From an uncultured Acidobacteriia bacterium (lineage in GTDB: Bacteria; Acidobacteriota; Terriglobia; Bryobacterales; Bryobacteraceae): a stretch of DNA of 64,000 bases. Shown here piece by piece: positions 21,219-23,578 of this stretch. Positions within the stretch are counted from its first letter, which is position 1. Each line of letters opens with the position of its first letter. The notes under the pieces were generated by a model. That model was not told the DNA's origin, did not search any database, and saw only the letters and a program-made list of their open reading frames with translations. Position numbers and translations under genes: made by a program. The stretch is taken from contig CAINNJ010000046.1 in assembly GCA_903851195.1 (NCBI GenBank), positions 62,001 through 126,000 on the forward strand. Reading direction: 5' to 3'.

Positions 21219-22262
21219 TTACACGGCCAAGGGCATTTCGGCTTCGCGCTCCTGCTTCCAGAGTTCGCGGTAGCCGCGCAGGGTGCGCATCATTTCCCGG
21301 AAGCCTTCGATGGTGAGAGACTGCGCGCCATCGCTGACGGCCTTTTCGGGGCAGGGGTGGACTTCGACGATCATGCCGTCCGCGCCGACCGCGACAGCGG
21401 CCTTCGCGAGGGCCGGCACCAGGCTGCGCTTGCCGGCGGCGTGGCTGGGGTCGATGATGACGGGCAGGTGCGTGAGTTCGTTGAGAACGGGCACGGCGGA
21501 AATGTCGCAGGTGTTGCGGGTGGCGGTCTCGAAGGTGCGGATGCCGCGTTCGCAGAGCATCACCTGCGGGTTGCCATGGGCCACGATGTATTCGGCCGAC
21601 ATGAGCAGTTCCTTGATGGTGGCGCTGAGGCCGCGCTTCAGCATGATGGGGCGGCCGCAGCGGCCCAGCACTTTGAGCAGCGCGAAGTTCTGCATGTTGC
21701 GCGCGCCGATCTGCAGGATGTCGGCGTATTCGGCGACCAGGTCGACGTCGCGGTCGCTCATGACCTCGGTGATGACAGCGAGACCGGTGGCTTCACGCGC
21801 TTTGGCGAGCAGTTTCAGGCCTTCGCCTTCCATGCCCTGGAAATCGTAGGGCGAAGTGCGGGGCTTAAACGCGCCGCCGCGCAGGATGGTGGCGCCGGCC
21901 GCGGCGACGGCTTCGGCCGTTTCCATGATCTGCTTTTCGCTTTCGACGGAGCAGGGGCCGGCCATGGTGATGAACTCATCGCCGCCAATTTCGGCGCGGC
22001 CGACTTTGATGATGGTCCGCTCTTTGCGGAATTCTTTGCTGACGAACTTGTAAGGCGCTGAGATGCGCACCGCTTTTTCCACTCCGGGGGTGGCTTCGAG
22101 GGATTCGAGACAGCCCGTTACGTCACCGCCCGCGCCGACGACTCCGATCACAACTCGTTCCTCCCCTTCGATCGAGTGGACACGGAAGCCGAATTCGCGA
22201 ATCCTCTCACAAACATGGTCAACTTCCGCTCTGGTGGCATGTGGCCGCATCGAAATAATCAT
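21219..22262 (-). CDS. aroF: 3-deoxy-7-phosphoheptulonate (DAHP) synthase, type I-beta with N-terminal regulatory domain
   Basis: DAHP synthase condenses phosphoenolpyruvate and erythrose 4-phosphate, the first step of aromatic amino acid synthesis. The 347-residue protein has an N-terminal ferredoxin-like/ACT-like domain of about 70 residues, then the AroA-beta/KDO8P-type barrel with [44 protein letters not shown] and [11 protein letters not shown]. This is the Thermotoga-like subfamily, whose N-terminal domain gives feedback inhibition by Tyr/Phe. Upstream there is an aromatic leader peptide and attenuator (22291-22415), so expression is likely controlled by charged Tyr/Trp/Phe-tRNA as well. 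Confidence 0.96.
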
Positions 22263-22290: not shown

Positions 22291-22315
22291 AAAAACCCAC
22301 TCTTGCGAGTGGGTT
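22291..22315 (-). terminator. attenuator terminator (segments 3:4) before DAHP synthase
   Basis: On the minus strand AACCCACTC and GAGTGGGTT form a 9 bp stem over GCAA, followed directly by a U-run (GGGTTTTTC). It ends 28 nt before the DAHP-synthase ATG and lies inside its transcript, so it is an attenuator, not the end of an upstream gene. Confidence 0.92.
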
Positions 22316-22407
22316 GGTTTGAAGAAAACTTGCGTTGACCTGCAGGTCTAAACCAACACCACTATGGAGTCGGGCTCCAAAATCGGTAGCTAAACCAGTA
22401 GGTGTTG
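22307..22407 (-). promoter_or_regulatory. antiterminator/anti-antiterminator segments of the aromatic attenuator
   Basis: Segment 1 is CAACACC (22407-22401) within leader codons 3-5. Segment 2 is GGTGTTGGTTTAG (22360-22348). Segment 3 is AAACCAACCCACTC (22320-22307). Pairing 1:2 (CAACACC with GGTGTTG, 7 bp) is exclusive with 2:3 (GTTGGTTT with AAACCAAC, 8 bp), which is exclusive with the 3:4 terminator. This is the classical layout of a ribosome-mediated amino acid attenuator. Confidence 0.85.
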
Positions 22408-22415
22408 CAGGCCAT
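22362..22415 (-). CDS. aromatic leader peptide MACNTYWFSYRFWSPTP
   Basis: A 17-codon ORF with ATG at 22415 and TAG at 22364-22362 encodes two Tyr, two Trp and two Phe in an eight-residue run (TyrTrpPheSerTyrArgPheTrp). It lies directly upstream of an attenuator and the gene for DAHP synthase, the enzyme making the common precursor of exactly these three amino acids. A ribosome stalled at codons 6-8 would cover segment 1 and allow the antiterminator to form. The ATG is 8 nt after a TATATT box, with only a weak GGGA upstream, so translation may be leaderless. Confidence 0.88.
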   Translation of the reverse strand: MACNTYWFSYRFWSPTP

Positions 22416-22423
22416 GAAGTCCC

Positions 22424-22451
22424 AATATAGCACTGGATTTTGAGAACGCAA
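22424..22451 (-). promoter_or_regulatory. promoter of the aromatic leader/DAHP synthase transcript
   Basis: On the minus strand TTGCGT (22451-22446) and TATATT (22429-22424) are separated by 16 nt. The leader ATG begins 8 nt after the -10 box. Confidence 0.6.
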
Positions 22452-22516
22452 GAGGGCGAAAGCGGATTTTCCGGATTTTTCGGGTATCCACCTGATCGTG
22501 GTGTATCTTTTCCGGA

Positions 22517-23578
22517 TCAGAGCTCTGCGATCACGGCATCAGTGACCTGGCTCGTTTTGCTGGTACCACCGAGGTCTGGTGTACGGATGTTTGTGCCGGA
22601 GACGACGGAGGCGATGGAGCGCTCGATGTCGGCGGCGGCTTCGGGGTGGCCGAGGTGGTCGAGCATCTGCTCCACGCAGAGAAATGTCGCCAGCGGATTG
22701 ACGATTCCCTGAAAGGCAATGTCCGGCGCGGAGCCGTGCACGGGTTCGAACATCGATGGGTTCCGGCGCGTGGGATCGAGGTTCGCGCTGGGGGCCAGGC
22801 CCATGCTGCCGACGATCATGGCGGAGATGTCGCTGAGGATGTCGCCGAACAGGTTAGAGGCCACGACGACGTCGAAGCTTTCGGGGCGGCGGATGAAATT
22901 CATAGCAGCGGCATCCACGAGAAGGGACTCGGTGGCGATGTCCGGAAATTCGGTGGCGACGGCGGCGAAGGCTTTGTCCCAAAGCACGAGCGAGTAGCCC
23001 TGTGCGTTGGATTTCGTGACGCTGGTGACTTTGCGTTTGCCGTTGCGTTTGCGGGCGAGTTCGAAGGCGACGCGGACCACACGCTCGACGCCCCGGCGGG
23101 TAAAGACGGAGGTCTGGACGGCCACTTCCTCCGGCTGGTCGTGATAGAGGAAGCCGCCGATCTGGGCGTACTCGCCTTCGGTGTTTTCGCGGACGACGAC
23201 GAGGTCGATCTCTTCGTGCTTCCGCAGCGCGAGCGGCGAGGCCACGCCTTTGTAGAGCTTCGCGGGGCGGATGTTGGCGTACTGGTCGAAGGTGCGGCGG
23301 ATGGGGAGCAGCAGGCCGTTGAGCGTGATGTGGTCGGGGACTTTCGGGTGGCCTACCGCGCCGAGCAGTATCGCTTCGGACCGGCGGAGTTCGTCGAGGA
23401 AACCTTCCGGGGCCATGCGGCCGTGGGCGAGGTAATAGTCAGAGCCCCAGTCGTAGTCCGTGTATTCGAGAACGAAGCCGTGTTTGGCCTGCAGGGCGGC
23501 GAGGACCCGTTTGGCTTCAGGGAGGATTTCCTGTCCGACGCCATCGCCGGGGATGACGGCAATCCGATGAGTATGCAT
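22517..23578 (-). CDS. tartrate / D-malate dehydrogenase (isopropylmalate dehydrogenase family)
   Basis: The 353-residue protein is an NAD-dependent beta-decarboxylating dehydrogenase. It has IAVIPGDGVGQEI, GAVGHP, the substrate-loop LPIRRTFDQYANIRPAKLY, VVVRENTEGEYAQIGG, and the C-terminal metal/cofactor stretch NLFGDILSDISAMIVGSMGLAPSANLDP plus EPVHGSAPDIAFQGIVNP. SPLALRKHEEIDLVVVRENTEGEY is closer to tartrate dehydrogenase/decarboxylase and DmlA-type D-malate dehydrogenases than to LeuB. It stands alone between the attenuator region and modC, 12 nt downstream of which it would end a transcript on the same strand in reverse order. Exact substrate is uncertain. Confidence 0.88.
   Translation of the reverse strand: MHTHRIAVIPGDGVGQEILPEAKRVLAALQAKHGFVLEYTDYDWGSDYYLAHGRMAPEGFLDELRRSEAILLGAVGHPKVPDHITLNGLLLPIRRTFDQYANIRPAKLYKGVASPLALRKHEEIDLVVVRENTEGEYAQIGGFLYHDQPEEVAVQTSVFTRRGVERVVRVAFELARKRNGKRKVTSVTKSNAQGYSLVLWDKAFAAVATEFPDIATESLLVDAAAMNFIRRPESFDVVVASNLFGDILSDISAMIVGSMGLAPSANLDPTRRNPSMFEPVHGSAPDIAFQGIVNPLATFLCVEQMLDHLGHPEAAADIERSIASVVSGTNIRTPDLGGTSKTSQVTDAVIAEL

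Follow-up and report, generated by a model that had tools for sequence, protein, structure and literature searches.

What controls expression of the DAHP synthase gene in an uncultured acidobacterium of the family Bryobacteraceae, when a short reading frame crowded with aromatic codons and a terminator stand in front of the gene? The locus lies on the minus strand of a 64,000-nucleotide stretch of contig CAINNJ010000046.1, hereafter the window, for which a first-pass annotation had proposed an aromatic leader peptide and a complete attenuator. Because Phe, Tyr, and Trp all draw on the carbon committed by DAHP synthase, a leader that reads all three would be a logical design. We read the element, with a probability of roughly 0.88, as a ribosome-mediated attenuator that controls transcription of the DAHP synthase gene. 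This interpretation is supported by the leader ORF, its aromatic content, the terminator and the competing antiterminator, and by their conservation and covariation.

The gene behind the leader (21219..22262, minus strand) is a DAHP synthase, as had been claimed. Its ATG, at 22262, is downstream of the terminator, and its 347-residue product is a type I-beta enzyme in which Pfam recognizes the DAHP_synth_1 domain (PF00793, 270 bits) and an N-terminal FXD regulatory domain (PF18152, DAHP_snth_FXD, 67 bits). Upstream of the leader, on the same strand, an isopropylmalate-type dehydrogenase ORF (PF00180) ends at 22517. The leader ORF itself (22362..22415, minus strand) has 17 codons that encode MACNTYWFSYRFWSPTP, from an ATG at 22415 to a TAG at 22364-22362. 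Its control codons, TAC TGG TTT AGC TAC CGA TTT TGG (22377..22400), specify YWFSYRFW, which places two Tyr, two Trp, and two Phe among eight residues and makes six of the 17 residues aromatic. The -10 box TATATT (22424..22429) is 8 nt before the leader ATG, and a -35-like box, TTGCGT (22446..22451), is separated from it by a spacer of 16 nt. The length of the ORF, its aromatic composition, and its distance from TATATT were re-read in the sequence and proved to be correct. In the 109 related leaders described below, the -10 box is 8 or 9 nt from the leader ATG in 69, and TTGNNN occurs 14-19 nt before the -10 box in 78. So short a distance leaves no room for a ribosome-binding site, and the leader ORF is therefore probably leaderless, with its start codon at the 5' end of the transcript.

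Four segments within and behind the leader ORF make up the putative switch. Segment 1, CAACACC-u-ACT (22397..22407, minus strand), is complementary to segment 2, AGTGGTGTTGGTTT (22350..22363), which overlaps the leader stop codon; CAACACC (22407-22401) is the complement of GGTGTTG, and the pairing can be extended by ACT (22399-22397) with AGT (22363-22361). Segment 3, AAACCAACCCACTC (22307..22320), pairs either with segment 2 or with segment 4, GAGTGGGTT (22294..22302), which is the 3' arm of the terminator, and the 29 nt between segments 2 and 3 contain the inverted repeat GACCTGCAGGTC. The antiterminator is formed by GTTGGTTT and its complement AAACCAAC, and its full form joins GTGG, one bulged base, and GTTGGTTT to AAACCAACCCAC. 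The terminator (22294-22315) comprises AACCCACTC (22315-22307), GCAA, and GAGTGGGTT (22302-22294), with a five-U run to 22291; on the minus strand the order is AAACCAACCCACTC GCAA GAGTGGGTT TTT from 22320 to 22291. All pairings of the three hairpins originally proposed are present in the sequence, but the antiterminator is longer than was claimed and the 1:2 hairpin is without covariation support. The element has two features expected of an attenuator: an intrinsic terminator between the leader ORF and the gene, and an antiterminator with which that terminator shares segment 3. Folding of the leader RNA, suggested as a check in the first-pass annotation, was favorable, with 1 of 200 shuffles matching the 136-nt RNA in stability (z -3.7).

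In the proposed mechanism, RNA polymerase would initiate at or very near the leader ATG, and a ribosome would load on the 5' end and translate the leader. When the Phe-, Tyr-, and Trp-tRNAs are charged, the ribosome would reach the stop codon that abuts segment 2 and cover that segment, so that the terminator would form from segments 3 and 4. If one of these tRNAs runs short, the ribosome would halt in YWFSYRFW and segment 2 would stay free; it would then pair with segment 3 as the latter emerges, and polymerase would read into the DAHP synthase gene. Stalling, a response to starvation, and a contribution from each of the three amino acids are what we infer from this arrangement, and it is on the grounds of codon content that the leader could sense Phe, Tyr, and Trp together.

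If the element is functional, it should recur in relatives. DAHP synthase relatives (E <=1e-30) were present in 195 of 200 genomes of the family, and from the best 150 places we took 148 upstream regions (30 + 118 loci), a set that leans to close orthologs; two places (G096, G193) were left out because the gene starts at the contig end. To pass the caller, an ORF had to encode 9-30 residues, three or more of them F/Y/W, and to begin 3-12 nt after a -10-like box; a terminator of at least six pairs, at least four of them G-C, with a T-rich tail, had to follow downstream. Leader and terminator were called in 109 of the 148 upstreams, or 109 of 146 when those of at least 300 nt are counted. The same caller accepted 3 of 1,460 dinucleotide shuffles and, among the 39 long ORFs of the window, only the DAHP synthase; a slightly laxer version was run on the window and 20 stretches of its genome (together 454 kb), and of the 288 ORFs there with >=150 codons it again returned the DAHP synthase alone. 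Phe occurs in all 109 leaders, Tyr in 101, Trp in 94, and all three in 88, and F/Y/W account for 34% of the residues after Met.

The 39 upstreams that fail the caller are not uniform. In nine the aromatic leader is present but the strict rule recognizes no terminator (L053, L067, L088, L091, L117, L127, L135, L141, L142), two have a terminator plus an aromatic leader by a looser first caller (L035, L096), two are cut by contig ends (L016, L122), and two keep the terminator with the leader absent (L033, L115). The remaining 24 show neither leader nor terminator by the caller's rules, and two of these (L018, L147) still have a CCCACTC hairpin.

The 109 called leaders were aligned (alignment A1) and compared with shuffled alignments, a control that ignores kinship among the sequences. 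The terminator is paired in 98.5% of cells. The antiterminator, GAGTGGcGTTGG with CCAACCCACTC, is paired in 91.5% of cells, versus 31-47% when its partner is slid, and its two-sided changes number 30 cells versus 10.4 +/- 2.6 in the shuffles, none of 500 being as high. Segments 2, 3, and 4 have changed jointly to GGGTGG/CCACCC/GGGTGG in three upstreams (L014, L015, L021) and to GAGCGG/CCGCTC/GAGCGG in another three (L052, L054, L071); other rows have one-sided changes across these segments, some of which disrupt a pair. Covariation was not found in A1 for the outer 1:2 helix, which is paired in 77.8% of cells versus 34-57% when slid but is equaled by 258 of 500 shuffles. Support for the inner hairpin is weak, its covariation score being reached by 46 of 500 shuffles, and RNAalifold on A1 returned the terminator alone. 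On the sequence evidence, the 2:3 and 3:4 pairings are well supported, while the 1:2 pairing appears conserved as sequence and is not supported by covariation. The check in relatives that had been suggested for the annotation thus came out positive, both in the 109 of 148 upstreams that have the leader and terminator and in an antiterminator and terminator that exceed shuffles and slid controls.

The position of the aromatic codons is also consistent with attenuation. They are densest between the 13th and the 6th codon before segment 2, where they fill 41-79% of each position, and rise again to 38% at codon 17; they fall to 12% at the fourth codon before segment 2 and to at most 3% at the last three. 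Relative to the start of segment 2, the stop codon ends between -45 and +12 nt in 104 of the 109 leaders. We folded the RNAs on the assumption that a ribosome covers 13 nt counted from its A-site codon. The nascent RNA acquires at least five antiterminator pairs at 597 of 660 positions when the ribosome is stalled at an aromatic codon, versus 33 of 109 leaders when it stands at the stop codon; in the window's own leader, each of the six aromatic codons gives ten antiterminator pairs and the stop gives none. When the full transcript is folded to equilibrium, the terminator prevails at 493 of the 660 stall positions, and the attenuator model hence requires co-transcriptional timing. In ribosome-free RNA that ends at segment 3, the antiterminator folds in 55 of the 109 leaders, the window's own among them, and the outer 1:2 helix in just 25.

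A different regulator might be suspected from a further feature, which is also another hint at where transcription starts. An inverted repeat, TACACC-N8-GTGG (22488..22505, minus strand), stands 90 nt before the leader ATG and is a possible operator or transcription factor site. The form TACACC-N7/8-GTGG occurs 33 times in 97,577 nt, and 22 of these occurrences, in 22 of the 148 upstreams, are 87-90 nt from the first ATG; in 14 attenuator upstreams the repeat precedes the leader ATG and in 8 attenuator-less ones the ATG of the gene, and four further attenuator-less upstreams have a similar repeat at 98-101 nt. In eight upstreams the attenuator is absent and the same promoter geometry abuts the ATG of DAHP synthase (L017, L019, L031, L037-L039, L051, L080); some attenuator-less upstreams were judged by the caller alone. 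It seems that in such relatives the promoter has been kept and the gene has taken the leader's place, as if leader and terminator had been excised precisely, and we take this to be loss rather than gain because the attenuator is present in other families of the class. The repeat could accordingly mark a transcription factor that is the main regulator, with the attenuator merely fine-tuning, and its fixed place in upstreams of both kinds favors such a protein. The repeat has this form and place in only 22 of 148 upstreams, however, fewer than have the attenuator, and we regard this explanation as unlikely.

A peptide effect was also considered. RFW occurs in 75 of the 109 leaders and RF in 99. 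Codon choice is shifted as well: Phe is encoded by TTT in 242 of 357 cases and Arg by CGA in 96 of 269, versus 19% and 6%, respectively, in 26 DAHP synthase genes, and Tyr codons are barely shifted (TAT in 66 of 178 versus 32%). The conserved core and the preference for TTT and CGA would suit an arrest peptide built on Arg-Phe-Trp that possibly senses free aromatic amino acids instead of empty tRNAs. Against this, Arg is substituted in some leaders (e.g., L010, L011, L026), and its third base varies with its pairing partner (A-U 26, G-U 20, G-C 16; 34 unpaired), a variation that an RNA stem would explain in part; the geometry, moreover, fits a model in which termination follows when the ribosome is released at the stop codon. 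We therefore consider an arrest peptide very unlikely. The codon bias of the leaders may sharpen the response or serve RNA pairing, and it leaves room for a peptide effect, which we rate low. A more ambitious scheme would retain the attenuator as class-wide and trivalent for the aromatic amino acids, with a 5'-terminal start codon, and have the RFW core and the uncommon CGA and UUU codons add a peptide- or codon-dependent pause beyond tRNA sensing; together with the aromatic and poly-Cys leaders of other families, leader-peptide attenuation would then be a general habit of the Acidobacteriota. We hold this scheme to be speculative and doubtful.

A T-box or another riboswitch that reads uncharged tRNA or a metabolite directly would likewise give a conserved terminator and antiterminator. 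No Rfam family reached threshold, however, in the window stretch or in eight relatives, and the conserved columns are the leader codons and segments 2, 3, and 4, which makes a riboswitch highly improbable. For the T-box, Rfam gave no match at E <=5 in the window stretch or at E <=1 in the eight relatives. None of the amino acid leader families (Trp, Phe, Thr, His, Leu) exceeded its curated score in the same sequences, the sole leader family listed being Thr_leader, at 24.1 of 55 bits in one of the eight relatives. Rfam also matched OmrA-B across the terminator, at 25.7 of 40 bits, and a snoRNA upstream; both matches are sub-threshold and were rejected. That the terminator merely ends transcription from the upstream dehydrogenase gene, which is on the same strand, and that the aromatic ORF is a chance occurrence has next to no likelihood, given that relatives with an unlike sequence farther upstream also have leader and terminator before DAHP synthase and that the caller's chance rate is 3/1,460.

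The distribution of the predicted attenuator was examined with a covariance model, R1. In the window's own genome R1 has one clear place (E 1e-21); its other matches there, the leader's terminator read on the opposite strand (E 1.05) and one weak match (E 2.6), are not considered real. Across the order it matches 186 of 257 genomes at E <=0.01, in 66 of 84 genera, and in the class 129 of 299 genomes at E <=0.001, 24 of the 129 being weak matches in one family (f11). Among 20 R1 places that were fetched, 17 precede DAHP synthase and the other three were unjudgeable (one too short, one at a contig end). In other families of the class, 15 of 20 fetched places, in f3, f6, f7, and f8, precede DAHP synthase; the f11 matches were rejected as DAHP synthase attenuators, being weak and, in five of five fetched, not before that gene. 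Among the further class places that could be judged (n=37), 32 precede DAHP synthase and the other five are all f11. The eight closest named DAHP synthase relatives are from Acidobacteria, Terriglobia, or Bryobacterales assemblies. Within the named relatives (78 of 80 loci), an aromatic leader with a CCCACTC-type terminator was seen in seven (L210-L215, L234), and those in other phyla gave a few AT-rich ORFs, mostly without a terminator (L280 with one). In a sample of the phylum, R1 matches 26 of 396 genomes at E <=1e-4, 16 of them outside the class (E 2e-7 to 7e-5).

The trpL, pheL, and ilvL attenuators of Escherichia coli operate by the same logic, and ilvL-type leaders also read several amino acids. 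They respond, however, to one amino acid or to the branched-chain amino acids and not to all three aromatics, their leaders are translated from a ribosome-binding site, and their sequences are different. The element was called unusual at the outset, which is fair, with the qualification that DAHP synthase attenuators with Phe/Tyr leaders have been described in Corynebacterium (aroR-aroF) and proposed in Acholeplasma. The C. glutamicum aroR-aroF system, compared here by its description in passages of two sources (PMC11802643, PMC4046766), shares a leader peptide attenuator on a DAHP synthase gene; its leader contains Phe-Tyr-Phe and, according to a review, responds to Phe and not to Tyr. It differs in belonging to another phylum, and Trp codons go unmentioned in those passages. 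In Acholeplasma, a passage of PMC8632094 proposes a uORF with Phe codon(s), uORFC-13-1, before a terminator and the DAHP synthase gene aroF; it differs in having Phe only, and its occurrence as given there is confined to Acholeplasma and environmental sequences. Control ORFs at the transcript 5' end also have parallels, in the passages seen, in the leaderless leader peptides of Streptomyces (PMC8079986) and the poly-Cys leaderless ORFs of mycobacteria (via PMC9031893), with other amino acids and other genes. In passages of other papers, the phenylalanine and tyrosine operons of Actinobacteria are reported to have no conserved RNA structure upstream (PMC1262725), leader genes are counted in Acidobacteria among others with no aromatic gene named (PMC4833913), and almost no attenuator predicted in Acidobacteria is linked to a function (PMC2965389). 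In the open-licence full-text literature, no paper was recognizable from its title, the start of its abstract, or its passages as describing this element in Acidobacteria. As far as these searches show, a leader for all three aromatic amino acids on DAHP synthase has rarely been described. What is new here, on the sequence evidence, is the predicted control of the common first enzyme by three aromatic amino acids through a probably leaderless ORF, in several families of a class and in a phylum with few annotated attenuators. If the leader is indeed leaderless, it offers a system for testing how 5'-terminal translation keeps up with polymerase.

Other pathway genes of the same genome (G000) were surveyed. 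It encodes two more DAHP synthases, one of them beside trpA, and a fused TrpE-TrpG (C9:46391-47122, C23:95680-96426, C1:130574-131332), and the caller found no aromatic leader before long ORFs in the stretches fetched around these genes. The idea that this genome is without TrpE, raised by the unmatched PF04715, was ruled out by the fused protein of 719 residues, which is present along with TrpA. In 30 listed trpE upstreams of the phylum, from a search with matches in 116 genomes, four W-rich or aromatic candidate leaders with a terminator were seen, three as candidates (L373, L376, L384) and one doubtful (L359).

The phylum search with R1 led to 17 loci that were examined: three from f31, five before TrpE, three from f32, one from f11, and five with nothing clear. 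In the f31 loci, which are outside the class (L338, L339, L341), the DAHP synthase is 54% identical and is preceded by a different leader rich in Trp (SCANWFWWSWRF / SCANWFWWPWHF). Aromatic candidate leaders with terminators precede TrpE in other families of the phylum (L342, L346, L350, L352, L354); Pfam agrees for the four TrpE starts submitted, and the TrpE match of L354 comes from a separate search. In the f32 loci (L344, L349, L351), the leader ORF has a run of six or seven Cys codons and is followed by a terminator and a PAPS reductase-like gene, PF01507 being found in the one submitted. Candidate poly-Cys leaders were also seen in f11: at two loci (L301, L302) a leader ORF with five Cys codons in a row, together with a terminator, precedes a 1-Cys peroxiredoxin (PF00578, PF10417), and the f11 locus from the phylum search (L340) has a poly-Cys leader before a peroxiredoxin.
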